A stretch of 64,000 bases of DNA from Antedon mediterranea (taxonomy: Eukaryota > Echinodermata > Crinoidea > Comatulida > Antedonidae): NCBI RefSeq assembly GCF_964355755.1, contig NC_092678.1, positions 20,248,922 to 20,312,921 on the forward strand, in the 5' to 3' direction. Below the pieces are notes generated by a model. The model had not been told where the DNA came from. It ran no database searches and saw only the letters and a list, made by a program, of their open reading frames with translations. How positions within the stretch are numbered: position 1 is the first letter of the stretch; every line of letters starts with the position of its first letter. Positions 5,101-39,505 of the stretch are shown in pieces. The translations under genes and the position numbers were made by a program.

Positions 5101-5160
5101 AACATGAATATAAACAATTTTTTGCCTGTGTCAATTACATGTTTTTATTTTGGGTTACAG
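2150..5160. other. AT-rich gene A upstream region, no gene identified
   Basis: No convincing exon is seen. The stretch holds two copies of a short interspersed repeat (about 2580-2690 and 3640-3760, sharing CGATCTAATTTTTGGTCAA). It also holds a block at about 2940-3110 that is conserved upstream of gene B (22430-22590). The missing signal-peptide exon of gene A should lie in or before this region but cannot be picked out by eye. Confidence 0.5.
2940..3110 (+). promoter_or_regulatory. Block conserved upstream of both receptor genes
   Basis: About 160 bp is strongly similar to 22430-22590 and sits upstream of the first visible exon in both genes. Each copy has a TATA-like TTATAATAAAAG (3014-3025 and 22482-22493). 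The short ATG frame inside is shifted between copies, so the block is not coding. A promoter or 5' UTR is possible, but it may simply be duplicated sequence. Confidence 0.3.
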
Positions 5161-6507
5161 GTGAAAAGGTCAAACATCTGCGACAATGTTAAGTGCCTTC
5201 CTGGATACCAGTGTTGTGAGGAAGGTAGAGATGCTTGTGGTGGAAATGAGTGTGAACAATGTATAGGTAATTTAATATATTTTATAATCTAACATTTCAT
5301 ATGATTCCCTGGTGCCCTGAACTGAAAAAAGTATCATGGAAATTGACTTCACACCAAATTTGTACGATTTTAATCCGTTTTTTTTTTCTTTACTGAAATC
5401 ATACATTTGTATTCTTTTGACCTATCAACAGTGATTATGAATGACCTCGCTTGACAACAGATAACCGTATTCATGTTCGATGTGAAAGCATGCACAACGC
5501 TCGCGATATTTCCTCAGGGTGCCAAACCGAATCCGGGCGCGATGTGAAAGTAGCTTATAGTCTACAGGGCTATCCACAAATTATCTAAATTCAGGCTGCC
5601 TACTGGAATTTTACACTGGCATACACAGAAATAAATGTACCGACCTATTTACAGCTATTTACCTACCTACTTAAGTGCCTATACCTTGTCATCTGCTATT
5701 TGGCAGGTCCATGAAAGTTTGCTTTCTCCACACTTCTCTATTTAGTGCTTCTTCTTTTAGTTCCATTTGTGTATTACTATTAGTAATAAGTAAGTAAGTG
5801 GTACTTTTATTTTTTAATCTATCAAGCATAGCTACTGTATCCTTGTTTTACTTTTGTATCTTCCTTCTGTCTACTGTATCACAATTTTCAATTATAATCA
5901 ATCCTTCCTATCCTTTTCATTATCTGCCTCTCTACTCTCTATCAATTTGTCCTTATTTCTTCTGAGTATTTGTATTTTCCTCCAGCACCACATCTCAAAG
6001 GCTTCAATACTAAATATTTCCTGCGTAAAAGAATATTCATTAAAATGTGTTCGATATTATTGAGTTTAATCACTGTCCTTCTCAAAGATAGAAACCCTAT
6101 TCTCAAGGCAAACATACTGTAAGCCATACACAATGATGTACACATCATCTTCTATCATTTTTTTGCCATGACCTCTGACATGATTTGAACCCAAGAATCT
6201 GCCAATCATCAACCCCAATTACATTTCTATTTAAATTATTGTCTTAACTCAATAGATGGAACATTCTCATCTGGTGAAGTTGGAGAATATTGTGAAAATT
6301 GTCACAATTGTCTCCATGGCGAAGACAAGATTAAGGACTGTACTCGTGAAAAAGACACGGTTTGTGAATGTCCATATGGTAAATATATCACCAGCTTTAG
6401 CACATGCGTACCGTGTGATGAATGCAATGAAAAAGATTGTAAAATAGTATGTAACACAACGACACCAAAATCAACGGCAACACCGCTAAAACAGTCCACA
6501 ACACCTG
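5161..6507 (+). CDS. Gene A exons 1-2: TNFR cysteine-rich repeats
   Basis: Exon 5161-5266 encodes a short Cys-rich module (C..VKC..GYQCCEEG..ACGGNEC..C). Exon 6256-6507 encodes a TNFR-type repeat with the pattern GTFSSGE..CENCHNCL, then CTREKDTVCECPYGKY and a final CVPCDEC..KDC. It runs into a TTTPKSTATP stalk. The spacing of Cys pairs and the CT...DTVCECPYGKY phrase are characteristic of TNFR cysteine-rich domains. The exons align with gene B exons 23241-23349 and 24925-25182. Confidence 0.85.
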
Positions 6508-9500
6508 GTAAGTTTCAATCGATTAGGAAATCATTCTCAATTTGGCAACCAAAACTAATTATATGATGATCAGGAAAACATTGTGGTTGTTTAGAAAATT
6601 GAGAAATATACCTCAAATGTAGTTTAACAAATACAACTTAAATTTATGTTAATTTGAACAACACAACAACTCTGATCTTTACTACACTACCTGGATTTGT
6701 GAAAACATAATTTTTAATTAATCGATCATTATTTGGACTATGTAACTTTTAATTTATTTTTATTTACTACTTTTCACAGCTAGAACCATTGTAATGACAA
6801 CACCAAGTCAAAAGACAACAACATCCACATCTATACCGCCTACCACCAATAACCAAGAAGAGGGTTCATCGTGGAAGGATATATACCTTGTACCAATTAT
6901 TTCCTCTTCAGGTAAGGCTCCCCTTAAAGGAAAAATGTTATGTCGATTTGTACTTGTATCAATTATCTAGTGGCATGACATGAATGAAAAAGACATGACA
7001 CCTGTTACTATCAGTGAATTACACCCACCTCTTGTATTGTGCACAGGTAGAGTATTGTATATTACAGCTCATTCATGAATAATTTGATAATTTAAATAAG
7101 GACCAAAATTTAGTGCATGAGAATTACTCCAAGCTAGTCACCTGTAGCCCATACAAGCTTTCGTGGTCATTCCTTGTTGCCATAGTCTTTGCCTACTACT
7201 ACTACTACTAAAAATCAATAAAACAGCATGTAGTACATTCTGTTTTATTGATTTTTTTTTTCAGTTTTATTTTTGGTTTTCTATTGGGAGAATGATTTTC
7301 TTTGTTGTCTTTACAAAACTAACCCAGATAACTACATATTGAAATTACACATATAAAATAAGAACATTCAGTTTCTGAATTTGTTATTCTTGTTATATTT
7401 TAGTGTTTGTTATCTTTGTTATTGGTGGTTTATGCATCTGTGCTAGAAGGAGTTTGTGCTGCTGGACTAGGGAGTCTCGAGAATTTTGGAGAAATTATTG
7501 TCCCTGGTGCTGTAAGTTTCTTATGTATAGATTTACCGAAGATTGTTTATGAAGTATTACGGCCCTGATTTTTAGAACCATTAACAGGTTATATAATGCC
7601 TAACGAATTTAAGGAGTATTTTTTCTAAAAGCACTAAATTCTTCAGCCAATAAATGTTTATAATCTTTGCTTCAATAAACAGTTTGTGAACATAAATTTG
7701 AAAACATTGGTTTGATCATACTAAAATGTTATTCTTCTGTATTTATTAGAAGAACCAACAAGTTGTATACAGTATAATTATCAATATATTTTGATTTTAG
7801 GCAAAACAACTGGAATTGAAGGTGGAAATGAAGGAATTGCTGTCTCCCAGGGTAATAAGAAATCTACCATGTGTAATATCCTAGCAGGTAAAAATATAAC
7901 TGATTTTATTAGTTTTACCAAACAAGTTTTTTACTAGTTTGAACAAATGTCTGTTTCAAATGCAATTTGTATTTTTGTTCTTCCTTTCTTGGAAAATGTG
8001 TGACTAGATTCGATAATAAACATTTTTATGTTGTTTCTATAGTAAAGCAGCTCAACAACTTTGTTTGTTTATTTTTATTATAGGGTGTTGTATAACAGTC
8101 CAACAAACGGGTAAATATATAATTTTTTAGTTGTAGTTACATACACTATTAATCATTTTCACTGTGTGTGGGAGAGATGAAAAATAATGTCACAGTTTGA
8201 TACAGAGTAGGGGCTATCAGTGAAAAATCTACAAGGCAGTACTGTACTGTAAGTAAGAATAACAATGTATTAGAAGACTGGAAATGAGCAAGATATACGG
8301 ATTCAGGACTACTGTAAAGGTCAAAGATACTTTATACTGTACTTGATTGCTTGATTGAGATTATGCTGTTATTTACAAGACTGGTAAAATGTGTAGGCTA
8401 GTCATTTCATTGATACATAGTCATAGACTGAGATTGTGGTGATACCTGAAATATTGCAGAACATATCACAAAGCGTAATAATGAATAGGAAATAGTGTGG
8501 AGGAGGGAAGAAAATGTGGAGTATGGCATCATACTTAAAACCAATTTAAAATTCCTTCTTTAAATTAATCTATGTGGGTGTGTGTTGGTAGTGGTGGAGT
8601 ACATGGTCAATAAGATAAGGAATAAATATATATATATATATGGTGTTTATTTTATTGTATTGTATCTTCGCTGAAGCCTATGTAAAATGGCATTATGCAT
8701 AAATATACATTTCCTAATAGTAAATTTGGTTTAAAAAAACATCATAATTTTCATTTTTTTTTAAGGGGCTGGAGACAATGCAGGTATTATTTCTAGATTT
8801 TAATGTCACATTTTCTCATCTTTATTCTTCACTATTCATTTTCTCCCTACTTGCAACATCTTTTAATCAAACAAAATTTTAAAAAAGATGTAGTTTGGGC
8901 CCAGCGAAAAATCATATTCTGCTACTGCATCTATCAAAATTATATAATATGATTATCAATATTTTTATTTGAAGGCAAACAAAACGAAAGTGATAATGTA
9001 GAAAGAAATAAGAAAACTACTGCTACTGCTAACATACAGTTAAAACATGTAAAAATAAAAGGTAAATATTTTGTAAATACCTGTTACTGAAGTTGAAGAG
9101 ACAATTTTACTAGTGGAAATGTGTTCTTCACATGCAAGTTAAAAGTTACACACACTGACCATAATCATTTCCATTAGGACATTAAATATTGAATTCTGTA
9201 CACTACTCATATATTTGTTATTTTATTATAGGTTCTTCCGTACATATACATGGTACATCAGCTACAGGTAAAATTATAATGACTTGTGTTTATAGTTTTT
9301 TTTAGTACATTTGTAAAAGATGCATTGTTCACATACTTGGTTGCACTGTGTGAGAGAGATGAATAATAATGTACAGCAGAACAATTTTAGGTGTATAAAT
9401 GAAACTATGGGAGTGTACTGTAGAGTAGGACACTCATATTAGAGTAGGAGGTGTTTTTAAAGTTCTTGAAAAGATCCTCTAAAGATGATGAAACTTGTCG

Positions 9501-12500
9501 TAGAGTTAACAAAAATGTGAACAAGGTAGACATTTTAGGCCAGACATGTGTAGAGTTTCCATCAGACCTCCCAACCCCAGGATAAGTCAGGAGTCTCCTG
9601 ATATATCAAGTCATCTTCTACTAATCTCCTGCTAAAATAGAATTTCTCCCAATTTGTTTATGCAAAAAAACATCCTTATGGATAAATGTATTACTTTAGG
9701 CTCTACTACAAGGCAAGGCAAAAATGTATTGCTCTAAAGCATTTACATCTGCCATACCCATTGTTTACTAGAATTATTAGTGATAGCACCTCTATAGTTT
9801 TTATTGCACCTTCTCTTGTTTTAAATGCTATCATAAACAATTATTCTAATATTTCATTTATTTAACTTGGGGCCTCTGTCTTTTCTGAAGATAGTATTGC
9901 ATGACAATAGAAGTAAGACAATAAATAGCAGACTTGAATTGGGGTGTGAGAAGGTATGGAGATAGGAATGGATCAGGGAAGGTGTTGCTGAGGATATCAA
10001 AAGAATTTGTGCAAAAAAAGCAGTAGAAAAAGCTATAGAAATTCAAATTCTATTCATTTCCGCAGTTTTCCTGAATTCAATCTTTATTAACATATGATGC
10101 AGTGAAATGTATATAAATGTAAAGTTTTATATCAATATGGCAATACTTAATTTTTTCTGAATGTTTGTTTATTCAGGTAATGATAATGTACAAAATACTA
10201 CTACTCCTGCACAAGGTATGTGTACTCTTTGTTTATTTTCATCATTATATAATATCATAATTACATATATATTGTATACAATATAATACTGTATTTATTT
10301 TTTTTAAGGAGCTGGAGACTGTGTATCAACAGGTACTGTTCATTATTGTCTTTTTAGATGTTAATTTCTTAATTGCTCACTATTCACTTTTCATTCTGAA
10401 TAGACAAAATGATATAAATTAAAACTAATTATTTTTTTTTTTTAAATCAGATAGTGTATTTGAAGAGGAAAATGACAAGACTGAAGGTAAGTTGGATAGT
10501 CAAAAATGGACACAAATTCTCTGTGGGAGGGGGTTTTAGACGTTTTATAGACCATAGATATTAAGAAATCAGTTATTTCTTGCCAATAGTCTATTACAAG
10601 TGTTATATGGTAGAAAGAAATTAGGGCCCTACTTGTTAATTTATGTATCAAATTTAATGCTCGGACAGAAAGGTCTAATATTAGTTAACTTACAACATAA
10701 ATTAATCAACTAGCGTTCACACAATCGTTTTATGGGAATTTTCCAATGAACAAACTAAGTCATCACAACGCTATCCCTGGGACGATTCGTCCCAGGGATT
10801 CTTTTTGTGCTTCACGAAAATTGTACATAATTTTTGCCCTAAATTCACCCATGAATAGGAGAGTCATTGAACAAGAGTACAAATACTGAAATGTTATTAC
10901 TGTTGTTTTAGGAACTGACAATCCTGAGAAAAAGCCTCTTATGAATCCTAATGGAAGTTCTGTGAAACAAACTAATGGAAGTTCAAGGAAGGGTAAAAGA
11001 AGTCTTATGAGCCAACGTTTATCCATCTCCAGTCTTCCTGATTTACCTGAAGATGGACCTCTAAGTCTACCTAGCTGGTGTTACCGTAAGATAAAGATAT
11101 TTAAACCTACCTTATTATTGAAATGATATCTGTCAACATCAAGTATGCCATCTTCTTTCTAAGAAGCATACAAGATTGTTTTCATTCATAAGTTTTCTTT
11201 TTTATAGAGGACAATGCAAGAGTTCAAAAGGAACACATATTAAACATCGCACCACACATTGGGAAAGAAGTAACAAGGATGGGTTTAAAACTTAACTTTA
11301 CAAATGGTGAAATGGAAACTATTGAGCATAAGCACGATTCAGATCTATTGAAACAAAATTTAGTGGTATTACAGCAGTGGGTGGAAAAAACAGGTGTTCA
11401 TGCTAAGAAGGGTGTTCTTGCACAGGCTCTTGATGATGTTGGAAAAGCAGAGTTTGCGATGAAACATTTGTGGTCTGATCAAGAATGGAAACAAGGTATT
11501 TAATTGAGTTAAACATTTTCAAAAACTTTTTTTTCATAATATTGTATTGTTTTTAATATTTTGTTTACCATATTTATATTTAAAGAGAAATCTAGTCTTA
11601 TTGCTGTTTAATATTTTGTTTAGGGATGTCAAAGATCACTAAAAAACCAACATTTTGGGGAAGAAGAAAAAGTCAGGAATTGGAGGTCAAACTTGATTCT
11701 GGTTAGTATTCTCTGATGAAATATGGTCAAATGATTAAATTCGAAATCAAAGACCCTAGACCTATATTTTTTACCTATTTTAAGGTCACACACTACATTT
11801 ATGTAAAATAAATACTATATTGACCTATTGCGATAATTTCTTTCTTTCTAATTTTTTAAATGGTTAAAGTGTAAAAAAATAAGTCATTTCTAATAATTTA
11901 GGCAGCCCGCTCTAATTCCCAACATGCATCGCGCACGGATTGTTATTTTCATATTGTGAGGTTATGCATCAATCGCGTGAAAGGGTAAACAAATAAAATA
12001 ACCGTAACTTTTCAGTGAAAATACAGTACCAGGAAAAAGGGAAAAAATTAATTCAGCAATGACACAAAGTTACCACTCTTTGGTAGGCCTAGAAACGTCT
12101 ATGAGAGATCTTTCAACACAAGTTACTTGCTATTAAGGAGAGGAAATTGTTTTCATATGTGAACAAGGAGCATTGTATGTTTTGCTACAGCAAACCACTA
12201 TTCATGGGATTTCCTTAATAATGGGACATTTTGTTTATTTGGTAAATTAATTGTATTTGATGATATTTCTATTGGTTTCTTCTTATTTTTGCAAAAAAAA
12301 CCCCAAAAAACAGGATTATGTTTAATCATAATCACCAATAAATTAATATTTTTAAGCTTCTCTGTTCCTTCTTATTTTGTCCCAAATAGCGATGACATAT
12401 TCCTCGTTTATAATGAATGATATATTCACAATGTTTATAATTTATAAATTATTTTATAGGTTATTTTCGTGGCAAGGACTGGACAAAGCAAAGCACATGG

Positions 12501-13220
12501 CAAGGGATCTGGGATATTATGTTAGAAAACGACTATGGAAGTTTTAGACAACTAAAATTAGCTTGCGGCACTGTAGAGCTACAACAACCTCGTCTTGATG
12601 GTGTACAAAGATGTCCGTATTTTAACCCTTCAAGTCATAGTTTGGATCAAGATTCAGTACCACGGATGAATTCACAGTGCGAAAATCGAAAACCTGTTAG
12701 TGTTCCTCATGGGGTTAATTGTTTATTTTCTGCCGCATCTATTATTTATTCTGGTTCAGAAGATCATTTCCTTGAGTTAAAACTACGAACTGTTATTGAG
12801 TTGACCTATCATAAAGATTATTATTTGAATCAAGAAACACTTATCCATTGTATAAAAGCGGAGTATGCACTGAGTCCAGAAGAGAACATTAAATTAACCA
12901 AACCCAAACATATAGAAGCACATTTTGAAAGTTTAGTTCGGAAAACATTAGGCAACCAAAGCGATTTCAGCCTACTGGGAAACTCCATCCATTTGTTCGG
13001 CCTTGCCTCAGTTCTAAACTGTAACATTCAGTCCATTTACCCTACGATGCGTGCATCACAACAAAGCCCTTTAAATGTACTTATTACTCCACGTAAAAAG
13101 GAGATAGAAGATCCAACAACTGTTTTCATTATGTGGTCTAGGCACACACCATTGCCTGAAGATGGACAGTTTGTTCCTAACCACTTTGTCCCTCTTCTTC
13201 AAATACCAACCACACATTAG
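5161..13220 (+). CDS. Gene A: TNF-receptor-like protein with death domain and C-terminal OTU-like domain (5' partial)
   Basis: The model joins exons 5161-5266, 6256-6507, 6780-6911, 7404-7511, 7801-7887, 8084-8110, 8766-8783, 8975-9061, 9232-9267, 10177-10215, 10309-10332, 10451-10486, 10912-11085, 11208-11495, 11624-11701 and 12460-13220. All have AG/GT borders and, after the first, symmetric phase 1. They sum to 2253 nt (750 aa plus stop) with no internal stop. The order is cysteine-rich ectodomain, Thr/Ser stalk, transmembrane helix, flexible linker, death domain, basic segment and OTU/vertnin-like domain. TNFRs bind TNF-family ligands outside the cell and recruit death-domain adaptors inside. 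A C-terminal OTU-like domain is not part of the usual family plan. No signal peptide is included. A readthrough start at the ATG at 5104 would give a weak hydrophobic leader, but gene B lacks an equivalent, so an upstream exon is more likely. Confidence 0.8.
6780..7511 (+). CDS. Gene A exons 3-4: Thr/Ser stalk and transmembrane helix
   Basis: Exon 6780-6911 gives a Thr/Ser/Pro-rich stalk likely to be O-glycosylated, ending WKDIYLVPIISSS. Exon 7404-7511 continues the hydrophobic run (VFVIFVIGGLCICA) and then a basic, Cys-rich juxtamembrane stretch (RRSLCCW), as expected for a type I protein with a stop-transfer signal. The juxtamembrane cysteines could be palmitoylated (inference). Confidence 0.8.
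7801..10486 (+). CDS. Gene A exons 5-12: run of eight small symmetric exons
   Basis: Eight exons of 87, 27, 18, 87, 36, 39, 24 and 36 nt each start and end in phase 1 with AG/GT borders. They encode a low-complexity cytoplasmic spacer in which a G-x-(G)-D-N theme recurs (GAGDNA, ESDNVE, GNDNVQ, GAGDCV), suggesting serial exon duplication. Any exon could be skipped without a frameshift. Gene B has only three equivalents. Exons this short are weakly supported individually; the joint phase consistency is the main support. Confidence 0.6.
10773..10799. repeat. 27-bp perfect hairpin in gene A intron
   Basis: Arms of 13 bp (ATCCCTGGGACGA and its complement) are separated by one base. It lies about 110 bp upstream of the linker exon at 10912. 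Such a palindrome could mark the end of an old mobile element or form a stem in the pre-mRNA. Confidence 0.7.
11208..11495 (+). CDS. Gene A death-domain exon
   Basis: This 288-nt phase 1-1 exon encodes about 96 residues with a death-domain pattern. It has an amphipathic start (IAPHIGKEVTRMGLKL), then a run METIEHKHDSDLLKQNLVVLQQW with the conserved Trp, and a last helix pair (KKGVLAQALDDVGKAEFAMKHL). Death domains form homotypic contacts that bring adaptors such as FADD or TRADD to receptors. The exon aligns without gaps with gene B 33331-33618 and gene C 55704-55991. The preceding exon (10912-11085) encodes a basic Ser-rich linker ending S-SLPDLPEDGPLSLPSWCY, also conserved in B and C. Confidence 0.85.
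12460..13220 (+). CDS. Gene A terminal exon: OTU/vertnin-like cysteine-protease-fold domain
   Basis: This 761-nt exon ends at TAG 13218-13220 and encodes about 253 residues. HGVNCLFSAAS resembles the OTU catalytic block DGNCLFRA-S, with the candidate nucleophile Cys codon at 12720-12722. Near the end PNHFVPLL places the candidate His codon at 13182-13184, after FIMWSRHT. This pair and their spacing are typical of OTU deubiquitinases and of the related vertnin-like family. The Asp of DGNC is His here but Asp in gene B. Activity is therefore plausible but unproven: vertnin-type members may be inactive. The preceding 78-nt exon (11624-11701) encodes a basic segment (FWGRRKSQELEVKLDS) kept in gene B. 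Confidence 0.75.
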
Positions 13221-19715: not shown

Positions 19716-20182
19716 CAGTTTGTATCTCGAGTTGCTACTAATTATTACTCTAACTGCATGGACCATGGAGGTATAAAATGGACTAACTCAAATAGGATTG
19801 ATAGAAATTTAGTTTTGTTTTGACAATCCGGTGGTTCCAAAGTTCAGCTGCAGTTGATTACTTACTGCCCCTAATAATCAAGCTATATTATAATTGTGAC
19901 AACATGAATCACTTGTAATCTAGCAAATGTTGGGTAACACCGGTGTTTTGGCCGCAAATTTGTAAAAAAATTAATATCTGATTCAGATAACATGTTTCTA
20001 ACTACACCGCTCGAGTCTTCTGAACAGGTGTGGAGTTGTTGAGTCGGTTGTCATGTAAATTACGAGACGTTTACTATATAATTTTTTAATTAAATTTAAT
20101 GGCTATTTAATTATGTCTAAGCTAAAATATAATATATAATATAACAAATTGTCAATGATCTATTACGTTACAGGGTTTACAG

Positions 20183-20292
20183 GCGAAAAGACCGATATCT
20201 GTAAACATATTGAGTGCTCTCCTGGGTAGGCATACCAGTTGCGAGGGAGGTAGAGACGCTTGTGCTGGAAAATGAGTGTGAACCATGCATAG
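20183..20292 (+). pseudogene. Dead copy of TNFR cysteine-rich exon 1
   Basis: The sequence aligns with exon 5161-5266 and exon 23241-23349 (…DI-C-…ECSPG) and keeps AG and GT borders. A 6-bp insertion after the GGG codon introduces TAG, and a 2-bp loss follows at CAG-TTGC, so the frame is broken. The flanking intron also matches that of gene B (for example near 20350-20420 and 23480-23560). It is a relic of another receptor copy or of a duplicated first exon. Confidence 0.75.
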
Positions 20293-23240
20293 GTAAAGAT
20301 GATGGTTCCTCTGTAATCAATATTGTTTGTAGTAGCCTATGAAGATGGTATAGTCTGGAATTAATCATATTCTTTCAGTCAACAGATCGAGACGATGATC
20401 AAATCCGGGGTACCTGGGAATTTAGGTAATTGATTCGCTCATACATTCACAAAAATGAAAAAATCTTTAAAATATTGTGTTTTTTACTGACGTCCTTTTT
20501 AAGTGGAAACCCAACTCACAAGACACAAATATGCTATACTCAAACATATCTTTTTTTGCCATGATCTCTGACAGGATTTGAACCTAGAACCTGGGTAGCT
20601 ATAGGCATCTTGCTAAAACTTTTTACATACGTTCTATTTGAGAGTCAAACCTCTCTTTCAAACACGTGTTGTCCTCCTCTGTTGTGGGAAAACCCCTGAC
20701 CATAGAGTGCGCGATGCATGTTATCCATCACTGCACTGTCATATCATGGAACTTATTATTATAGTTCCATGCATGCTGAACTCAAGGACATTTAAAAAAT
20801 GATCGAAGATATGAGCTAGTATTAAGGTGTGTGTAGCCGTTCTTGTTTATGGTGATGAAATCCTAAGCCTTTAAGTCGTATTAAATGGAATTGTCACATT
20901 TCACTATCCCTATTATATTTGTATTTATTCAATATTCTATCATTTTAGCGAGTCCAGTTCAAATTAAGGTAGGTGTAAATAATCATATCCGACCAAACTA
21001 GAGGCTAGGCTAGGCCTAGCTAGGCCCTAGCCTTTATTAAGAAGGCTCGTATAGGGCTTAAAGTATTAGGACTAGGGCCTAGGTAGCGTACCCAGGACTA
21101 GTCTTTGGCCAATTGGAATACAGTACTAGGCCTAGGCCTACTGCTAGCCTACTGTAGGTTTAGATTGGATACTGTGGTATAGGGCCTACTGTAGATAGCT
21201 AGGCCTAGGCCGTGGCATGATTTTAGGTTGACTTGACTGACTGGCAAATTTAGATGGTTTTGGTTGGGATGGAACTTATTATGTGTTCATTCGAATAAAA
21301 TACAAATAGTTAGTAGGACTAGACTGTGGGCCCTAGCCTAGCCTAGTGTATTAGTTTTATTTCATGATTTATATTGTATTATTTATCATGACTGTAATTA
21401 AAAACAAATGTTTTTACTGTATGTAACAACAAAAAGAAAACAATTTTATCGCATTACACTAACAGTAAAAAAAAACTTTGCCAATCCATCCCCAACATCA
21501 TAATGCTTTGTAATTATAGTACAGTACTTCAAAATACAAATTCCATGAAATAAACAGAGTTTTGTACAAATCTACTTTTAAAAAACCAGTTGCACTAATA
21601 TAAAACTATTGTTTTTTTTATTTTTTATTTTGTACACTATTATTAAGTCAGAGAATAGTGATACTGTATTAAATATCACCTCCGATATATTAATTACATT
21701 TCCATGACACAATTAAATTATGTATTATGTGTGGTAATGTTTGAACATTTTTTCATTATTAAAACCACATATGCTGATGTTATGATTTAATTTGATTGAC
21801 AGACCTCGAAACAAAACAAAAATACACATTAGAAAAACCACCTGGAAAGGAAACGCCCACAGTACATTGCTCACTGACAGGATAATATGCTTTAACTTAA
21901 GTACTGTTTTAAGAAACGTGAATGTTTAAACAACAAACAATAAATATTTGATAGGCTAGTTATTTTTCAAAGCATCAATCAAATAATTAAAAAAAAACAT
22001 CGTAGATAACAGTTATTTACAACACTTATAATTAAAGATGTATTGTCCCCCTGAAAAATGTTTGACTTTTCTTTTGTTGAATATGCCATTAGATGTCACA
22101 TAATAGTTATCCACTTTGACCATACAATGAATGATAAATGATTAAATGTTCAGCTGTTTGGAAACTTTCTGATTGACTGATCAGAGTTTGAAAACCCAAC
22201 ATGAGTGTGCGTTGTATAAAAATGTTCTACTTTGCTACCAAAATTGAAGCGCTTTTTTCAAGCCTATATCCTCATCCTAACAGATTATTAAAATTTAATT
22301 TTAAAAATATTTGACATTTTAGAACAGTAAAAAATAATTAAATAAATAAATGTTTTGTTGTTGGAAAGAATATTTCATTTGTTGAACAATTGTTATGATT
22401 GCCTTCTAAATTTGTTTCTGTTTAAGTTTTCTTTATGATTATCATTTCACAAACCTTGACCTCATTTTTGTGTGTCAAAAGTTATAATAAAAGAAATTTC
22501 TTCTAATTGTTCGTTATGACCACAAGAATACACAAGGGAAGATCGTGTATTGTTTAAGCTTCAATAAAATTCCCTACTCTGTTATTGTTAAATGAACCTG
22601 TAGCAGGTTTACAAAGTTACTCTAAAAGTACTGATACACAGTGATAATAATAATTGGGAAGTATAAAAATTTTAAATTTTATTTAATATAAATGTTGCTA
22701 AAAATGGTTAATTATACTGCAAAGTTTAAAGTCTGGTTCTTATTCTCTTCCTTCTGAATAAGTTGTAGTTGACACGCAGAGCTACAGTATACATTTCATA
22801 AAATATTTTCCACCAAATTGGGCGTGTTCCACAGGGTCAATTTCAAGGTCAAAATATCGCTCAGTTTCATCCAACACAAGAGTACACAATACTATACAAA
22901 AATACCTCAAAATCGGACATGTATTTCCAGAGATATAACTATTTAAAATGTGGCAGCCACGCCATTTTTCAAAAATAAAGAAGAAAATTTAAACTTTAAT
23001 ATCTTGAAACCACTAGTCCGATGAAGTAAGCTTTACTCGGTAAGGTAAGATTTAAAATGTATTTTTTGTGTGAACTGAGTTTAAATGACCCAACTTCTAT
23101 TTTTTTTTTAACACACGCTTCACATTATAATATACAGTACTTAACTGTAAAAATAATGCTTTTAATTTGAATATTTAAAAGAGAACATTGTAAATTAATT
23201 TTTTTTACTTTAGGCCTACCTGTATCTTTTTGGTTTATAG
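20293..23240. other. Intergenic DNA with a TAGGCC-rich cluster; possible gene B 5' region
   Basis: A palindromic CCTAGG/TAGGCCTA-rich cluster lies at about 20998-21215. The block conserved with the gene A upstream region lies at 22430-22590. No confident exon was found. Gene B's signal-peptide exon should lie here or further upstream. Confidence 0.45.
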
Positions 23241-26200
23241 GTGAAAAGATCAGTAGATATCTGCAGAGACGTTGAGTGCCCTCCTGGGTACCAGTGTTGC
23301 GAGGGAGATAGAGACGCTTGTGGTGGAAAAGCGTGTGAGCCATGTATAGGTAATGCTATATTTGTAATAAAATTGTTATTCTTTAAAAAAAAATGCAAAC
23401 ATTCTCATGGTCAATAGAATATTTGAAAAGCTTAAATGATTGTAATTTATAGTAAAAACAAATGTGTATAAAATGATATGTCTGGAATTATTACTGCCTT
23501 CTCTGATTCAACAGATTGAGAAATTATCAAATCCAGGATGCCTACTGGAATTGGGGTAATTTTGCTCTAACTAACATAGACTAGTTGTTTGGCAGATTGT
23601 TTTTCACTGTCCAGCAAAAAGGAGGCAACCATTGTTTACAAGACATACAGTCTTTTTGTCAATGATAAACAGTCTTTCCTCTCGGACAATACATGATGTG
23701 AACCTAGGTCCCTCTTAACTTTAATTATAATAGAAATTATTTATTGTTTTAAGATGAGGAAATCTGTGAGATATTATTATTATTATTTATGGTATCTGTT
23801 ATTTCATAGAGATCTATGGTTATTTCCATATTATTAAAATACAGTGACAGCCAAAAGCTGAAATAAAGTATCTTTTAACAATTAAAAATTGGATAAATAA
23901 ACAGCAATAGTATTCTGGCGCTTACTAAATACTAAAAACAATATAAAAAACTCAACAATGACATTCACTAATACAAAAATATCAATATCTATGTAAAATA
24001 TCATTATCATACAATATTCACATTATCACAATTTATGAATTAAAAATGGGTAACATTATTATTGTATTCATATTATCATTGTTATTTTAAAAATCAATTC
24101 TATAAGTCTATATTGCATTCATTTCATTTCTTAGCTATATTTTATGGTCGCATTTGGTTTGTTAATAATAATTAATAAAACTTTATTTAATCACGGTAAC
24201 ACTTGTTCACCTCAATGGTGTTTTTCGACAAGGCTGTAAAACATTATACACAAATCAAATTTAACAATTAAACAATTAACAGCAAGAGTTTATCTTTAAT
24301 GATTTACACTTAAATTAGAATGACTTAGAATTTAACAATAGATTGTAAAAGCCAATTTTACAAAAGAATAAACATCAAAATGAACAGAGCATATTTTTAC
24401 TTAAATAATTAAACTTAATACTAAAGATATTAAATAAATTATTAATAAGAATTTAACTATAAAAAAACTGTTTTGAACCTCCAGCGCAGTGGGAGGAGAA
24501 AACGGAGGGAATGCCAGGGTTAGTAACACCATTGATAATCAACCCTGTCATTCAAAAGACGGGTGAGATAAGGTATTGGACTGTTAAAATAAGGTATTGG
24601 ACTGTTAAAATAACGTGTTGTTTTGCATTTATATTCCTGATAATTGCTTTCTGAACGCCACTGCGCTGGAGGCCCGCTTAAAAAAATTTTCAAACATGGT
24701 TGTTTTTTTTTACATTAGACACAAACGATCGATCATGGTACGGTGGAACAACACTAGTTCTGTAGAGAGATCAAATTGAAAAGACCTCACATTTCAATTC
24801 ATCAATTCATGAATATAATAAAACCACCAAGTACAATTGTTAAGATGCCCTTATGTTCTTTTTTATAAGATAATATGGTTACACTTTTACATTCCTAATT
24901 TAATTAATTGTTTTGTCTCAACAGATGGAACATTCTCTTCAGGTGAAGTTGGAGGAATCTGTCAGAATTGTCACCATTGTCTCCATGGCGAAAACAAGAT
25001 TGAAGAGTGTACTCGTGAAAAAGACACGGTTTGTGAATGTCCATATGGTAAATATATTACTAGCTCTCGCGTATGCTTATCGTGTGAAAAATGCGGTGAA
25101 GAGGACTGTAAAAAAGTGTGTAATGTAACGACAACACCAAAACCGCCAGCACGAACAACAACGCAAAAAACAACAATACCTGGTAAGTTTCAATTTATCA
25201 TAAACTCATGATCTATCCGATTTAAGCAAAACATCTTTGGTTTTTTTTAAATATTTTTCTGCTATTTAATGTTTATATTTCGTTGTTTCTTTATTTATTA
25301 TTCCTTATTTGTCCTTTTTTACAGCCGAAACCACAGAACATCCTACCGACCCAGAGAAGAAGAGTTCTCCGTGGAAAAATATATACCTTCTGCCGATTCT
25401 ATGTAATAAACTTAATATAGTTTCTGATAATTTCACATGTAGAATAATAACTACTAGTTTACTGTAGTGTTACTTAAATAACTACACATTTTTTTATTTT
25501 TTTTTTAACCAATCTCTTTGTCTATGTGTACATACAGACACAATATAAAAACAAAAATCTAGTTAAATTACTCCATAAAATTTACTGCAGAACTTCACAT
25601 TTTTCTTGCAGAAGTCCTAACTCCTTGTAACTGTATGAAATCATCTTTTTAGTTATCCGCATTGAGCGGATAACTCCTTGTAACTGTCCTGTTTCATCAT
25701 CTTTTTTTTTTTTTTCTGTATTCTTCTTTCTTTCTGTCTTTTTTGTGTCTCGCGTAACTCAAAAACGTGTAAACATAACATTTCATAACTTTGTCAACAT
25801 GTGGGCATTTACGTGAAATTGTGCACCTCCTATTTTTGAATGACGTCAGAGTTGCGCAACATGACTTACGCGCGTTTTTCCGAATTTCGCGTATTTAACA
25901 TAGATCGAAAACCATATAACAATTTAATATGAAACTTGACAAAAGTTTAAGTTATATCTTGCGCTAACTGACTATGGGGAAAAAATGGCATGTTTCACAC
26001 GAAGTTACGCGCGCACGCGTGTTTAAAATTTCAAAATGCGAAAAATCAATTTCTAATCAACTTTCTACGCGTTTCATGTAATTTTAAGCATGTACAAAAT
26101 TCCCACGCGCGCGCCTTTTTTTACGCGCATGGTGCGAACGTAGCGTTGAAAACACTTTTTTTTGTGTGATTTATGTTTTTTCAGCCTTTTCTAGTAATTT

Positions 26201-29200
26201 TACCAACTTTTAAACAATTTCGATTTAAAATTACGTCATACGGGCACGTTGAATTGAATAATTTACGTGCGTTTTTTATGAAAAAGTTAAAAAATTTGTC
26301 AAAATTCGTCAAAATTATGCCTTTTTTTAAACAGTCTAAACAACGAGGTGAAATTTTTTTAAATTACAAATTCTTGAAGTTGATGAGTTGTAGATATGGG
26401 ATCATGAATCAATATGGCTAACCGGACATTGTGACGTCATCATATGGCCACACGAATGAAAAATATAGGATTTTTGTCTCTTTCGTTATTGCTCATCATA
26501 TTCAATGGAGCGCATCACGCCTATCTGTATTCCTTTTTCTCCGAGATTTTAATATTGTCTAGGTCAATCAACTATCTTTCGCATGAGTTAAAAATATTTT
26601 AATTTTTATGACGTCATCATGCCTAAAAATTATAATTAACAGGGTTATTAATTTCATCTTTACAGTAAATTTTAATCTGTTATAGCTCGTAAGAATAAAA
26701 AGTGATAATTATGATAAAAACGTTTTCTGGAAGCTATTGGACTGTAGATACGAATTAATGTGAACATTTTGCCAATCGGATGTTGTGAAGTCATCCTATG
26801 GCCAGTTGAATAAAAAAAGTCGTATTTTCATATTTTGCGTCATGGTTCATCATATTTAATCGAGCACGCATCCATATTCTACGTATTCAAATTTCTTATA
26901 CACGTTAATATGTTGTTGGTGAGATAATGTCCTTCCGAAATTGCTATCTTAGTGTTTAATTTTAATACCATGTTAAAAATTGGAATAAACGGTGGGTCCC
27001 GTAATTTCACCTATTCTACACTGTATGTAATATGTATACAGATTATACTGCATATACTATATGACACAAAATAGACAGAATTCAGCACTAACAAGATATG
27101 ATATTCTTCAGTTCAGGTCATAATGCCATAATCTTTTTCTGTGTGCAATATTCCAACGTATGACGTGCACGTGGCGTTTGTCGTGCGGATAACTAACTCG
27201 TCAAAGTGACGAGTTTCATGTCTAGTTTTTTTTTTTTTCTGTATTATTGTGTCTCGCGTATCTCAAAAACTTGTAAACAAAACATTTTATAACTTTGTCA
27301 ACATGTGGGCATTCACGTGAAATTGTGCACCTCCTATTGTGAATGACGTCAGAATTGCGCAACGTGATTTACGCGCGTTTTAACGAATTTCGCGTATTTA
27401 ACATAGATCGAAAACCATATAGCAATTTAAATTGAAACTTAACAAAAGTTTAATTTATATCTTGCGCTAACTGACTGTGGAAAAAAAATGGCATGTTTCA
27501 CAAGAAGTTACGCGCGCACGGGCGTTTAAAATTTCAAAATGCGAAAAATCAATTTCTAATCAACTTTCTACGCGTTTCATGTCATTTTGAGCATGTCAAA
27601 AATTCCCACGCGCGTGCATATTTTTACTCGAACGGTGCGCACGTAGCGTTGAAAATAAATTGTTTTCGCGTGATTCATGTTTTTCCAGCCTTTTCTGGTA
27701 ATTTTACCAACTTTTGAACAATTTTGACCTAAAATTACGTCATACGGGCACATCCAATTGGATAATTTACGTGCGTTTTTGATGAAAAAGTTCAAAAATG
27801 TGTCAAAATTCGTCAAAATTATGCCTTTTTTTAAACATTCATAGATTCTAAACTACGAGGTGAACTTTTTTTAAATTATATATTCTGGAAGTTGATGAGT
27901 TGTAGATATGGAATCATGCATTAATATAGCTAATCGGACATTATAACGTCATCGTATGGCCACGCGAATATAAAATATAGGATCTTTATATCTTTCGTCA
28001 TAGCGCATCACATTTAATAGAGCGCATCTCCACTTATCCGTTTTTTATTTTCACCCCGATTTTGATATTGTCTAGGTGAATGAACTATCTTTCGCATGAG
28101 TTAAAAATATTTTAATTTTTATGACGTCATCATGTCGAAAATTGTAAATAACGTGGGTCACTTATTTTCATCTTTACAGTAAATTTCAATCTGTTATAGC
28201 TCATCAGAATAAAAAGTGATAATCATGATTAAAACGTTTTCTGGAAGCTATTGAATTGTAGATATGAAATCATGTAAACATTTTGCCAATCGGATGTTGT
28301 GACGTCATCATATGGCCAGTTGAATAAAAAAAATTGTATTTTCATATTTTGCGTAATAGTTCATCACATTTAAAAGGGTGCGCATCTATATTTTACGTAT
28401 TCAAATTTCTTCTACACGTTAATATGTTGTTCCTAAGATAATTTCCTTCTGAAATTGCTATCTATGTGTTTCATTTTGATACCGTCGCCATGTTAAAAAT
28501 TGGAATAAATGGCGGGTCCCGTAATTTCACCTATTCTACACTGTATGTAATATGTATGCAGATTATACTGTAGTGTTTGCATGTATACTATATGACACAA
28601 AATTGACAGAATTCAGCACTAACAGCATATTATATTCTTCAGTTCTTGTCATAATGCCAAAATATTTATCTGTGTGCAATATTCCAACGTATGACGTGCA
28701 CGTGGCGTTTGTCGTGGTGCGGATAACTAACTCGTCAAAGTGACGAGTTTCATGTCTAGTTATAATTTATTTGGAACAACAGCACTCTACAGAGAACTTA
28801 ATTAAAATAAAATACACCTTCAATATTTATAGAAATATCAAGTACAGGTGCAAGAACATACATTGTTTTTTGGTTCCAAACATCAATTGCAATCGACAGA
28901 ATTTGCTCAAGCATTGCCAATTCCTTCAGTCTAATATTCTGGAGGTCAGGTCATGAGGAAAGGATCTTCAGTAGTAGAATTATATAGGTTACATAAGCTG
29001 TCTTTATTGTTATCATCCGACCAGCTTAATATACATTGTAATGTATTGGACTGCAATTTTAATTTTAAACTTGCACTTTCGAACCCTATACATTGTGGTG
29101 CAACTATGTTCTTCTCCTGACATGCATAAACAGTGATACTTATTGTGGTCTATGGTACTTGATAATCAAGAGAATTCAGTGTATTTTAAACTTTCTTATA

Positions 29201-32200
29201 TTTTTAGTATTTTTACTCATCATCGGCATAATCGTTCTTTGTTGCAAGTTTAATGAGAAGTTTCGGAAATTTTTGGAAAATCTCTTTCCTGGCTATTCCT
29301 TTGGTAAGCTGTTTTTTCTATTACTTTAAAAAAAAGATTATATGAAGAATTTTCCCCATCATTCTCTTTGCTCCAACCCATACACGGAAGATAAATGCAA
29401 GCAATGCGTCTACAATAAGCACTGCTCTTTTCCAATAGTGTACCAAGTTTTTTATTGTACATGGTAGACCAACGGCTTAACAACAACCTGAAGGATGAGG
29501 CAATAAGGGAACTGTACCTTTTCACATGCCAGTCCAATTCATGAATACACCATTGTGATTTTTGGCCACTTCCCCTCTCGCTAGAGATTTAAAGGATTAT
29601 CTTTGTATCATGCCGACGTTTTTATCTGTGTTTATTATTACAATTGTATAGTAATGAAATAAATAAAATATAATTCTGTTAACAAACTCAACATTTTTCT
29701 TACCTGCAATCAAAAAGCCTAGCTGAAAAAATTATTTATTTTGTTATATGTTTTTTGGAAAACTGAAGTGTTAATTTTTTTCTTTTAGGCATAATACATA
29801 AAAAATTTGCAGAGGGTGATAATAAAATCCAGGATGAGAAATCTGATATCACACTGGTTAATATGGCAGGTAAACATTTACTTAATAAAATGTATTAAAT
29901 AACAACATAATAAACAATGACACTACAGAACAGATGACTTGTATTGTCCAAATAAACTGGAAATATTGAATATCGAAACGTGGCAGGCTCTAGTTAGAAT
30001 TTATAATTTAAACTTACGATACTTTTATAGTATTGTATATATTCGGGAGTAGCCGCTGCATACTCTCTTTGCTTTTCTTCCTTATATGTATCTATACTCT
30101 TCATGTTCAATTATTTATACTAACATATAATTATTATATTGATACGTATAACATAACAGTTAAATATGTAAATGTAACAATTAATGAATAACCAATCTAC
30201 TACACGATAATTTAATCTATACACAAGATCATTATTCCAAACTATTTACACTAATAAAGTTAAATATCTTATTTCGATTTCTGAAAAAACATTTCAATCT
30301 TCTAGCTACTAAAGCTGAAGTATAGTCATATCTTGGGACCATTCTATAGTTAACACCAGATAGGTTTTCTTCATCAGTGCTTCTTCTGTTGAGCGCAGGA
30401 ACGCTAGTTGACAATACCCAATTTAAAAACTCCTACAAAATGTAAAGTACAGTGATCTCTGGAAAGGTGCCATAATATAGTTGTTAATGTAATGTTATTT
30501 AAAGAATAAATTACATGCACACCTCTGTCCGTTTTTCTTCATCTGAGAAGGAAAATGCATTAGTAAATTGATTTTAATATTTTTTTGTTTCATTTTAAAC
30601 ATTTTTTCCCCAAATTGATGATTAAATAATGATTTTATTGTTTTTTAAAGGTGGTGAGGACAGTGTACCAAGTGACGAAAAAAAATCACAAGGTATAATG
30701 TTTTGTAATTTTTACAATTATAACCCACATGATTCCTTCATGTTCATTCATCTAAAACCTCCAATACCATAGGCCTACTGTAATCTCAATTCCTGCCAAG
30801 CAAACATTATAAAGTTTTGTTTCCACACAAGTGATTTCAATATAATAGGGTTTTAGCTAAAATAGATAATAGACTGTACAAAAGCCATTATGTATTTTCC
30901 TAGATTTTCCATCAATTGACTATTCTTTTCACAAAAAAAATAAATAAAAATAGTTTTTGTCCAGGTTTTTTCTTAAAACTTATCACTTGACATTATTTGG
31001 GTTCCACATACAGTAGAGACTTATACGCTCGTATTCCTAAACCAAACTTTAGTCGTAGTTCGAAGTTCGACTTGAAAAAGTCCTAGTTCGAGCTATTACT
31101 TCAATTTTGATTCATAAACGAAGTAATCAAAGTTTGCAGTTCGACTTAATGAAGTCGAGCTTTTAGTCGAGTTGCACACATCTGGGTAACAAAGGCTATA
31201 CATTGGCCAATGACAAGAGAGTATTTGAGGAGGCAGACGAAATTTTGCTCATTGATATAACTTTCCATTTTCTTACAAAACGTTTTACGCATCAGGACTA
31301 TAATACATGAAAAATAATTTTAATTGTTAATTATTAGAACAAGATCAGTATTAATTAATAACAGTGAAGTACTTTTGATTAACAACAAACAAAATCTTCA
31401 AAATATATTTAGGAACCATGGCTTATTTTCTAGGCCTCCAACAAAGTATGATCGCGACGAACCACGTACTTCATAGTGTGACAAGAAAGCGCTAGGCCCC
31501 CTAAACATTCCATCGCGTGGTGAGTTTCCGCATCTCCCATTGTCGCTATGGCGTGACGTAGTTCAAAAATAATAATGTAATTTGTATAATATGGTTGTAA
31601 ATAAACATGATTTAAGCATAAACATATACCAATGTATATTTAAGTAAGCTAATATAAAAATATTTCATTCTTCAATATCTGGCCAATATTACAACTCAAT
31701 GACTGTTTAACCTTGTTTAAATACCATTTATTTGGTGATTTAGCCTGCCCCCTCGAGGACTAAAAAAATCGATCAAAATCCGTCTCGATTTAAGTCCGGT
31801 TTAAGAAGACGGGCGATAGAGTCTAATCAGACTATGGTTTCTGCAAAATAAATTTCACATTGTGCACAGGTTCAACTTGGAAATATGAAATATCGTGGCC
31901 AAACATACTGTATGTAATCAATATTGGGCATCAGCATCTAAACAAGGTGTGGCCTATTCTGACGTGTATTGTGGAAAGTGCATCACCAAAAAATTATTTT
32001 AGGTAACCAAAAGGAGTGTAGAGAGACTATGAGGATACTTGTAATATAATTCAATACAATCAGGAGAAACAATAAATGTGGAAACTCCCGCGATTAACGC
32101 GAGACTTGATTGTGCTACACACCTACTAACTATATATAATACTGTATTCGAAGTGTTAAGAAGTGTCCAAAATGGCTTTTGTCAGATATCCCATGTTTAT

Positions 32201-35177: not shown

Positions 35178-37103
35178 TCTTCTGGTTATTCACACACAGA
35201 ATAATTGTCCCTAGTTAGTTTTATTGAAATCAACTGTTGAGGGCGCTATGTTTTTTTTTTACCTTGGTCGCATTTTGCCCTTGCATGGTCTTTTTTCGGA
35301 GAAAATTTATAGTTTTTGAGTAGTAGTTAACTGAGTTTAAGTAGTTTGACTGAAAAAAAAAATCTTTTGCGATCGAGGTTTAAGATAAAAAAAAAACTAA
35401 TTCTTTCCTTGTTGAAAAATTTCAAACCCACCTTAATTTTTATTTGATCCGTCTACAAACAAGTGTCCTTTAAAATTTTATTTTGGCCAGAATTTTCTGA
35501 TATTCAACTTTCTATGCAAGAAAATATGGTAAGGGTGGTTAAAAGATTGAATGCAAAACCTTGAAGTAGTTTTTCATTTGAATACTGTTAACAATTTTTA
35601 GAATTAATTAAGGTTTTATAAATGGTATTAGTAGAAGTATATAATATATTCATTACAATGGCTGATTTATTGATATTTTTGAAAAAGTAAAGTATTTTTG
35701 AAATATATTTTCAATTACTATATGACAGTAGATAAAAGTTTACAATATAATTGGAAAAATTTTATATTCCTTTGAGTTGAACTAAACATTTTAAATGTAA
35801 AAAGCAAAAGTGGGCTTATGTTAAAATGGAACTGAAAGAAACTTTGTTGACATAAGTGATCCGAGAAACTGACTTCAACTGACCACAAAGCTACGCAAAC
35901 TATGTCGACATAAGCTGAGTTGAGTTGCGGATCTGATAGGAACAAAAAAAAAACTGTGGTTCATGTTGACATGGTATTTGTAATCACGACCAGTTGTAAT
36001 GTCAGCAAGGATTGTGTGCCCATTGGTTCCACTCCTCAATTACAGATTGCGTCGCGTATGCAGTATGGGTAACCATGACTAGATAGAATCCGTTCCATAC
36101 TTGGTACACTAGATATTTTGCTTCTCCAATGGCGACACGTGTCCTATTGTTACTTTCCATACATAAGAGCTTGTATACTACTAGTTACTTTCAGATAAGT
36201 TTTACTGTTTATGTCGGTGTATATATTAACTTAATACTGAAGTCTGTATAACAGGTGATATTGAACAAATTCCAATATCAATCATTCCTAATGAAAATCT
36301 GTGTTTTGTGTGTTTAAAAAACAAATTAGAAATAGTTTTTAAAATGACAATGTGTACAGTATTTGTAATGTTACTTATGTATGTGTTACTTAAAAATATA
36401 AGTATTTGGATGTTACTTTTAGCATGGAGTACTTTTAGTAAACAAGAGTCACTCAACGCATCAGTGTATCTCTACATACATTTATTACTGTATCATGTTC
36501 ATCACATGTGCCACCTACAGTATATCATGGTTAGATCAAGGTTAGATCAAGATTACAAAACGATGCATGTGATACATATGTGACACTGTATCACAGAATT
36601 TGCCTATGATACTGGACAAGGTACAGATACAGTACTGAGAATTAAGTATATAACTTTACTACACATATCTTTCATTTATAGCTGCTTTTATATTATTGGC
36701 AACAAAATAGCTATACATATCAATATATTTTATTTTCAATATATTATGTGGATTGTGATTTTTTAAAAATTGTGTGTTATAAGTGTTAATGTGGAAACAG
36801 AAATATTAATTTTGTATTCTTGTAGTTTAAAGTAGATAAGTATTATATTTTAATTGACAAAACCAATTGTAACTAATTAAATATATAGCAATTATATTTA
36901 TGCATTGTATTAATTAGCTGTCTTTCTTACATCATGGGTAACACACCTTATTTATGGTAGATGGGAAAGAAGATATTTTTTAATTGTATTGTAAAGAAAT
37001 TTTAAATAATTTATGATCGCATACATTAATATCAATTTTATAATTTTTTATTTTTTAAATATTTAAAATTTGCATATTTTCACATGTAGATAAGTTATAT
37101 GCA
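35178..37103. other. Gene B 3' flank, paralogous to 13221-15200
   Basis: Noncoding sequence collinear with the gene A flank, probably with the 3' UTR at its start. A roughly 100-bp segment near 36058-36165 is absent from the gene A copy and probably represents a small insertion here or deletion there. Confidence 0.7.
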
Positions 37104-37904: not shown

Positions 37905-39505
37905 TTAGTCATAGTCATAGTCATATATACTTTATTGTCCATTTAAAAAACAGAAATGTGATTTGAAAACTGGCAAAATACAAAAATATAAAATACAATT
38001 TACAAGAACACACACAAAAAGTTAAGAGGCTAAAAATTGTTAAAATTAGATAAAAATTATCGGTTACATTTTACCTTTGTACTCTGGAGTTATATAAGTG
38101 TATAGCATTAGGTACAAACGAGCACCTAAACCGTTTTGTTTTGGTATTAAGTGCACGTAGTCTTATGCCAGAATTCATGAGAGCAAATTGTTTGTGAAGA
38201 GGATGTGTTTCATCATCAATGATACTTTTTACTTTTTTTAACACATTTTCTTTATACAAGGATTCAACATCAGGTAAGTGCTCTCCTACTAGTCTAATTG
38301 CTCTATTTCCTATTCGATTAAGTTTAATTTTATCTTTTTGCATTGTATTACCATAAAAACAAACATTACAAAAAAGTATTACACTGAGAATTACAGAGTT
38401 ATAAAACAATTTAAGTATAGTTTTGTCAATTTGTAGGTACTTCATTTTTCTTAAAATAAACATCCTTTGGTTGGCTTTGCATGTGGCTTTATTTACATTA
38501 TTTATCCAATTTAGCTTATTGTCAATTATACAACCCAGATATTTGTACTCATTTACTACTTCAATCTCATTTTCATTTATAATCAGAGGTTCTAAGGGTT
38601 CTTTAATTTTCCTAAAATCAATTTGCATTTCTTTTGTTTTCTTTATGTTTAGTTTCAGGTTGTTATTGCAGAACCAGTGATAAAAATCACATCCTAGTTG
38701 TCTATAGCTTGTTTCATCATTGCCAGTAATGTATCCAGTGATGACTGTGTCATCTGCATATTTTACTATACAACATTCATTTGAATTGGCTCTGAAACTG
38801 CTGGTGAACAGTGAAAACAACATTGGGGAGATAACAGACCCTTGTGGCGTGCCAATGCTAACAGTTCTTTTATCAGATAAAATACCGTTTAGTTTAACAT
38901 ACTGGAACCTTTTTGTTAAGAAATTATATATCCATGAAGTCAATGTGTCGTTTACGTTCATTTCTTTAAGTTTGCGTACTAATGAACCAGGTTCAACGGT
39001 ATTAAAAGCACTAGAAAAATCTATATACAAACATCTTACATATGATTTAGGCACATCTAAATGTTGGTAAATATTATGTAAGTGGAAGAGCACAGCATCT
39101 TCAACACTTCTATTACTCTGATAGGCAAATTGGAGAGGATCGAGAAACAATTTGGTCTGATCAAGCAACTGCCTAAGTACAATCTTTTCTAGGCACTTAC
39201 CAACATTGGATGTGATAGCTATTGGCCTATAGTCATTAAGTTCCTTGGGATTTTTTATCTTAGGAATAGGTGAGATACAGGCCGTTTTCCATTGATTGGG
39301 CACTGTACCACTTGCTAAACTCTCATTAAAAAGTTTGGTATATATCGGTGCCAACTCTTGGTTGCAGTATTTAATAACACGATTTCCAATTCCATCAGGG
39401 CCAGTACTTTTACCAGGCTTTACTTTGGCGAATACATTACGCACATCAACTACATTTATGACTGCATTGTTTACTAATGAAGTCTCATTTTATTTGAACA
39501 TATTA
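37905..39505 (-). mobile_element. 5'-truncated LINE with reverse transcriptase (L2/CR1-like)
   Basis: This insertion interrupts the flank shared with gene A (compare 15720-15770). The ORF at 38071-39444 (457 aa) encodes a reverse transcriptase from its fingers onward: GKSTGPDGIGNRVIKY, NDYRPIAITSNVGKCLEKI, IDFSSAFNTV (motif A), GTPQGSVISPMLF (motif B), VKYADDTVITG (motif C with the catalytic DD) and a KYLGCIID thumb motif. The endonuclease is missing, as expected for 5' truncation. The 3' end (low coordinates) has AATAAAG followed by a hexameter tail (TATGAC)n at 37905-37925. The ORF is open to its 3' end but cannot mobilise itself. Confidence 0.85.

Follow-up and report, generated by a model that had tools for sequence, protein, structure and literature searches.

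Exon structure of the tandem receptor genes

The window analysed in this study is a stretch of 64,000 nucleotides (C9:20248922-20312921) of the Antedon mediterranea assembly (354 Mb), and positions given below refer to it unless they are preceded by C9. Gene A comprises 16 exons within the window (5161-13220), with AG acceptors at 16/16 and GT donors at 15/15 of the expected sites. Phase is 0 on entry to the exon at 5161 and 1 at each of the 15 introns that follow, which leaves a single open frame; the phase-consistent exons that the first-pass annotation had described for this interval were thus recovered. A signal-peptide exon with a GT donor was found at C9:20240084-20240170, about 8.8 kb upstream of the window, and for this reason the exon at 5161 is the second one of the gene and not the first. 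The ATG at 5104, considered as the start of gene A, was rejected, as the first residues are replaced by those of the upstream signal exon. The computed product of gene A has 779 aa and contains, in this order, a signal peptide, a TNFR Cys-rich region, one transmembrane (TM) helix, a death domain and a predicted OTU-fold domain. The exons of gene A in the window are:

5161-5266, + strand: Cys-rich ectodomain exon, the first within the window (AG/GT sites; alone without a Pfam match)
6256-6507, + strand: second Cys-rich exon with a TNFR_c6 repeat (borderline Pfam score; splice sites)
6780-6911, + strand: Thr-rich stalk exon leading into the TM segment (splice sites, frame)
7404-7511, + strand: TM and Cys-rich juxtamembrane exon (hydropathy peak 2.53 over 19 residues)
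7801-11085, + strand: cytoplasmic linker of nine phase-1 exons (7801-7887, 8084-8110, 8766-8783, 8975-9061, 9232-9267, 10177-10215, 10309-10332, 10451-10486, 10912-11085), with the same order in NCBI model P0001
11208-11495, + strand: death domain exon (Pfam Death E 3.6e-9, 37.1 bits, cut-off 22.6)
11624-11701, + strand: short linker exon (60% identity with its gene B counterpart)
12460-13220, + strand: terminal exon with the predicted OTU-fold domain (AlphaFold2; Foldseek, VIA and profile matches); Cys87 at 12720-12722, Asn240-His241 at 13179-13184 and the stop codon at 13218-13220 (residues numbered from 12462)

Six phase-1 exons of the linker (8084-10486) are only 18-39 nt long, and skipping of any single one would keep the frame. 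The possibility that the terminal 259-aa ORF arose by chance was discarded, since in 60 first-order Markov simulations based on the window no ORF of this length arose (longest, 178 aa).

Gene B (20885-35178) has the same layout, with 12 exons including the signal exon. From the second Cys-rich exon onward only one splice combination fits the NCBI protein, with canonical exons and one open frame. Exon order and intron phase are as in gene A, and the exon order of paralogue D, described below, matches too. The exons of gene B are:

20885-20968, + strand: signal-peptide exon (28 aa)
23241-25402, + strand: ectodomain exons 23241-23349, 24925-25182 (TNFR_c6, 31.6 bits, over the cut-off) and 25325-25402
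29208-29303, + strand: TM exon (hydropathy peak 3.15)
29789-32933, + strand: linker exons 29789-29869, 30651-30692, 32295-32339 and 32751-32933
33331-33618, + strand: death domain exon (Pfam Death 3.1e-9)
34074-34151, + strand: short linker exon
34417-35178, + strand: terminal exon with the predicted OTU-fold domain (71% identity to A over 252 aa; Pfam OTU 0.007, below the cut-off)

The first Cys-rich exon also recurs in decayed form at 20174-20296, directly upstream of the gene B signal exon, and once more beside the near copy of gene B introduced below.

Receptor modules

As listed above, the TNFR ectodomain, the TM helix, the death domain and the OTU-like terminal exon with its Cys and His blocks all lie where the first-pass annotation had placed them. 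The TNFR_c6 repeat of gene A is borderline, scoring 29.1 bits in the single exon frame and 29.4 bits in the joined ectodomain at a cut-off of 29.4, while gene B and a homologous protein of Anneissia japonica (30.0 bits) exceed the cut-off. Two hydrophobic peaks, assigned by hydropathy only to the signal and the TM segment, were found in the gene A product, in the Anneissia protein of 778 aa and in the first 218 residues of gene B; across the whole gene A product two peaks exceed 1.6, one of them being the TM peak. The death domains of A and B score over the Pfam cut-off and that of Anneissia reaches 20.0 bits, below the cut-off of 22.6. Nevertheless, a whole-protein model of the Anneissia sequence matched the death domains of Fas-FADD, RIPK1 and RAIDD, as well as the A20 OTU, and the best PDB sequence match of the gene A death domain was that of RIPK1 (1.2e-7). 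The Cys-rich repeat, the signal peptide with a single TM segment (type I, predicted) and the death domain on the presumed cytoplasmic side place these proteins, as judged from their sequences, in the TNFR superfamily.

The receptor array on C9

Genome-wide, the OTU exon gave 13 matches in Antedon, five of which are strong and lie in one C9 stretch, all after death-domain exons. They correspond to A, A' (a 94% copy of A), B, B' (a near copy of B) and D, with A' and B' being either true or assembly duplicates. The remaining eight matches (33-35% identity) are PHD-OTU repeat-type ORFs. Mapping of the array exons across 182.5 kb showed that paralogue D (L023, C9:20200932-20209645) possesses Cys-rich, TM, two death-domain and OTU exons. 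In the same mapping paralogue E (C9:20220416-20228604) has a TM segment and a death domain, with no OTU exon found, A' gave no ectodomain or TM match, and the Cys-rich exon match of B' is interrupted by a stop. A further fragment lies within the window:

55048-56347, + strand: gene C fragment, a copy of the gene B linker and death-domain exons (94-100% identity to 32631-33940)

An ectodomain, TM or OTU exon of gene C was not found nearby.

The OTU exon is under constraint. Its dN/dS values (NG86) are 0.28 for A-B, 0.38 for A-D and 0.41 for B-D, and all 10 OTU-exon pairs fall within 0.28-0.41, below most death-domain pairs (0.32-1.35, defined for 26/28 pairs; the top value, B-C, is based on very few changes). 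For the Cys-rich exon the A-B value is 0.34.

Predicted proteins and conservation in a second crinoid family

Of 2482 candidates scored in a homology search with the death-plus-OTU region, six proteins reached E up to 1e-3, namely three NCBI predictions of Antedon mediterranea, one of Anneissia japonica, and P0005 (VRTN-like, Mya) and P0006 (FLYWCH plus OTU), the last two giving no Pfam death or TNFR match. P0001 (Antedon) is identical to gene A over the death-plus-OTU region and begins inside a gene A intron, without the signal exon; P0002 (Antedon) misses the TM exon and most of the ectodomain. The full layout is present in P0003 (isoform X2, Antedon), in which the first two exons of gene A (the signal exon and 5161-5266) are joined to gene B (24925-35178). 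P0003 represents either a chimeric model or genuine splicing between tandem genes. The Anneissia protein aligns with 98% of the query at 47% identity; it carries a signal peptide, a TNFR_c6 repeat over the cut-off, a TM segment, a death domain and an OTU region; the two species belong to different families within Comatulida. When the Anneissia protein served as the query, 3956 candidates were scored and three reached E up to 0.1, namely the query, P0003 and a Helitron-type protein whose OTU match is weak. Neither search (2482 and 3956 candidates scored) had a fusion from outside crinoids among its matches, but both are word-based and may miss distant ones.

Since P0003 joins gene A exons to gene B, predictions at this array can be chimeric, and the OTU exon could in principle belong to a separate gene or have been attached by mis-joined models. 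Such an artefact is nevertheless very improbable, as order and intron phase are the same in A and B, the exon order recurs in D, the domain order is the same in the second crinoid family, and the five strong OTU matches of 13 all follow death-domain exons of the array. A split or mis-joined gene was accordingly rejected on the exon structure of A and B and on the NCBI models in Antedon and Anneissia. The first-pass annotation had itself used the repeated layout of gene B as an argument against an artefact, in line with the shared order and intron phase of A and B, and it had named separate transcripts at the death-OTU junction as grounds for abandoning the fusion; the predicted proteins span this junction. 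The fusion is real at the genome and gene-model level and is conserved in two crinoid families, and we regard the TNFR-death-OTU architecture as nearly certain.

Fold of the terminal domain

Pfam OTU scores of the receptors all remained under the cut-off of 23.3 (13.8 for gene A, 14.7 for P0003 and 17.3 for gene B), with no match at E up to 1 for P0001, P0002 and P0004. Because of this, OTU membership was drawn from profiles and fold and not from Pfam. The AlphaFold2 model of the gene A terminal domain has a pLDDT of 89.9, and Foldseek and VIA searches matched it to OTU deubiquitinases including A20, with 12-20% identity in the fold alignments and modest Foldseek TM-scores (best TMq 0.53; VCPIP1). 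Profile searches matched the solved OTU enzymes Cezanne, OTUD1 and A20, while the alignment of the His block with A20 is by itself not significant. A single-sequence PDB search with the OTU exon found nothing, NCBIfam gave no match for the four proteins scanned, and BFVD yielded a single match within E 0.001, those listed being weak. Taken with the structure model, the Foldseek, VIA and profile matches assign an OTU fold to the terminal domain, in agreement with the OTU/vertnin-like fold proposed in the first reading of the locus, which was to be dropped had the prediction pointed to an unrelated fold.

Putative active site

For comparison of the catalytic residues we aligned 93 relatives out of the best 120 of 434 from a third homology search, by profile (2735 candidates scored). 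Where the letter is present, these 93 of the best 120 have the Cys in 89/90, the His in 92/93 and the Asn preceding the His in 92/92 cases, and in the loop before the Cys an Asp at -3 in 85/89 and a Gly at -2 in 89/89. In the alignment all six crinoid receptor domains keep the Cys, the His and the Asn before it. The loop, in turn, reads G-V-N-C in the five Antedon domains and N-G-N-C in Anneissia vs. D-G-N-C in relatives, so that the canonical D-G-x-C loop is absent from all six. Given this change to the consensus loop, the domain can be called no more than a putative enzyme.

The domain may thus be a pseudo-deubiquitinase, in which the OTU fold is retained as a ubiquitin-binding or docking module while the changed loop has abolished or much reduced catalysis. 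Besides the G-V (Antedon) or N-G (Anneissia) in place of D-G at positions -3/-2, this explanation is favoured by a Ser in the crinoid receptors where 72/90 of the aligned relatives (93 of the best 120 of 434) have an Arg after the Cys block, and by the description of human vertnin, a relative by name, and OTULINL as inactive OTU homologues, human vertnin being reported to lack the catalytic residues (PMC10318531). Yet the Cys and His are kept in 6/6 crinoid domains though only 101 of 240 gap-free columns are invariant. Moreover, DUBA D221A is reported to remove ubiquitin from IRAK1 as well as the wild type, while C224S does not (PMC12561430); D221 was equated with the -3 Asp from the D221/C224 spacing. 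Activity may survive without the Asp at -3, because the D221A protein still acts on this substrate, although for DUBA self-deubiquitination both D221 and C224 mattered (PMC12561430). We consider a docking module with lost or much reduced catalysis somewhat less likely than not. The altered loop lowers the likelihood of activity, which may nonetheless be retained.

Relationship to transposon-borne OTU domains

A tree was built from 59 of 128 cut domains, with midpoint rooting only, so that the root is arbitrary, and with vertebrate vertnin absent; an earlier quick tree contained 71 of 127 cut domains, with one MULE sequence absent and added by hand. In the 59-sequence tree the crinoid receptors form one clade (100/100) on a long stem (1.21), and a branch with 100/98 support parts them from seven vertnin-named mollusc sequences, leaving the receptors on the side with MULE, FLYWCH and Helitron sequences. 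Four sequences labelled as transposable elements group at 66/79 only, the label of P0006 being given from its domains alone, and ten further sequences on that side are without assigned origin. A plain vertnin orthologue was not adopted as an explanation, in view of the split from the vertnin-named mollusc sequences in this tree without vertebrate vertnin.

PHD-OTU ORFs of the Antedon genome belong to two kinds of dispersed repeat (L014-L021, on C2, C3, C4, C5, C6 and C11), whose copies are 99.35-99.92% (L014-L018, over 2.9-3.5 kb) and 98.5-99.0% (L019-L021) identical. The one copy scanned per repeat kind has a MULE-like transposase ORF nearby, at a distance of up to about 5.3 kb, the label resting on Pfam MULE scores of 27.3 and 25.8 bits, slightly below the cut-off of 27.6. 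Published work describes Helentrons that carry OTU genes and, for another class of deubiquitinase, domestication from transposons (PMC4067079, PMC9741609). Based on these comparisons, capture of the OTU domain from a mobile element seems plausible. In a fuller scenario, the crinoid lineage would have domesticated an OTU deubiquitinase of transposon type by turning it into the last exon of a death receptor. Such a receptor would edit ubiquitin by itself, as if carrying its A20 in cis, and would have expanded in tandem, with one-death-domain, two-death-domain and OTU-less versions; as a whole this scenario is somewhat unlikely.

The same grouping bears on another explanation, by which the domain does work as a cysteine protease or isopeptidase but acts on a different target, such as another ubiquitin-like tag or the receptor itself, and performs no ubiquitin editing in a death complex. 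Substrates of the vertnin-like and transposon-borne OTUs with which it groups are not established, and the OTU domains of helitrons and of tegument-type viruses are reported to have had no activity test (PMC9741609). The best matched structures, on the other hand, are ubiquitin-cleaving OTUs, and we find such an enzyme improbable.

A possible receptor with ubiquitin editing in cis

The reading we prefer is that these genes encode a family of crinoid death receptors, predicted to sit at the cell surface as type I members of the TNFR superfamily, whose death domain was extended C-terminally by an OTU-fold domain from the vertnin/transposon group. Because the inner tail ends in a predicted OTU-fold domain, reception of a death signal and editing of the ubiquitin marks by which that signal is tuned may be combined in a single protein. 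A ligand would cluster the receptor, and the death domain would then assemble adaptors. The OTU domain tethered within that complex could act as a built-in A20- or Cezanne-like module, trimming ubiquitin or a ubiquitin-like tag from the receptor or its adaptors, and such trimming might limit NF-kB-type signalling and tilt the outcome. With catalysis included, we hold this mechanism tentatively, at slightly less than an even chance. The direct coupling of ligand binding to deubiquitination proposed in the first-pass annotation may therefore exist, given the kept Cys and His, but is made uncertain by the altered loop.

TNFR1, Fas and p75NTR resemble the crinoid receptors in their Cys-rich ectodomain, single TM helix and cytoplasmic death domain, but their chains terminate behind or close to the death domain and engage ubiquitin enzymes via adaptors, whereas the crinoid proteins add an OTU-fold domain after it. 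Editing of TNFR1 complexes falls to recruited ubiquitin enzymes; A20, Cezanne and OTULIN are described as separate enzymes that damp TNF signalling, with A20 and Cezanne damping TNF-induced NF-kB (PMC7326080). CD137 is described as having no known intrinsic enzymatic activity and as depending on TRAF adaptors, akin to other TNFR members (PMC6262405). A20 (TNFAIP3), Cezanne (OTUD7B) and VCPIP1 have the OTU fold and the Cys and His blocks in common with the crinoid domain; they are, however, soluble non-receptors with a canonical D-G-N-C loop. Poor chain cleavage was reported for the OTU domain of A20 itself (PMC4765238). Vertnin (VRTN) and vertnin-like proteins, recovered in the profile search that supplied the aligned relatives, have an OTU-like domain of the same wider group, yet the vertnin-like proteins scanned carry no TNFR or death domain. 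Likewise, transposon-borne OTUs (Helentron OTU genes and the Antedon PHD-OTU MULE-like repeats), located on the same side of the tree as the crinoid receptors, differ from them in having an intact D-G-S/N-C loop, PHD or helicase partners and no receptor parts.

The closest precedent for such a shortcut receptor is the TNFR-caspase hybrid of amphioxus, also an invertebrate deuterostome, in which a TNFR ectodomain is joined directly to an intracellular enzyme domain; it is cDNA-supported in amphioxus and carries a caspase, a death executor, where the crinoid proteins carry an OTU domain, a possible ubiquitin editor (PMC2575513). A TNFR-death-OTU fusion was not described, judging by title and start of abstract, among the matches listed in open-licence literature, and a search of that literature for a crinoid TNF receptor with a death domain found nothing. 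If the OTU domain works in cis, it would show that a single chain can have the output of a death receptor and the editing of ubiquitin built into it together. Such a receptor would be a minimal system for the effect of local deubiquitination on signalling and would add a ubiquitin-related case to the shortcut receptors. Should the transposon source be true, a protease domain of a mobile element would have entered innate immune signalling.

Other elements of the locus

Between and after the receptor genes, retroelement ORFs were noted at 38074-39489 (- strand), 56841-59060 (- strand) and 59919-61791 (+ strand), with matches to reverse transcriptase, RNase H, integrase zinc-binding and endonuclease domains. 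The longest open frame of the window encodes 838 aa (49032-51545, - strand) and gave no Pfam match at E up to 0.001. Across the Antedon genome at least 149 death-domain matches were counted (150/179 candidates scored), many of them clustered on C3 and C5.
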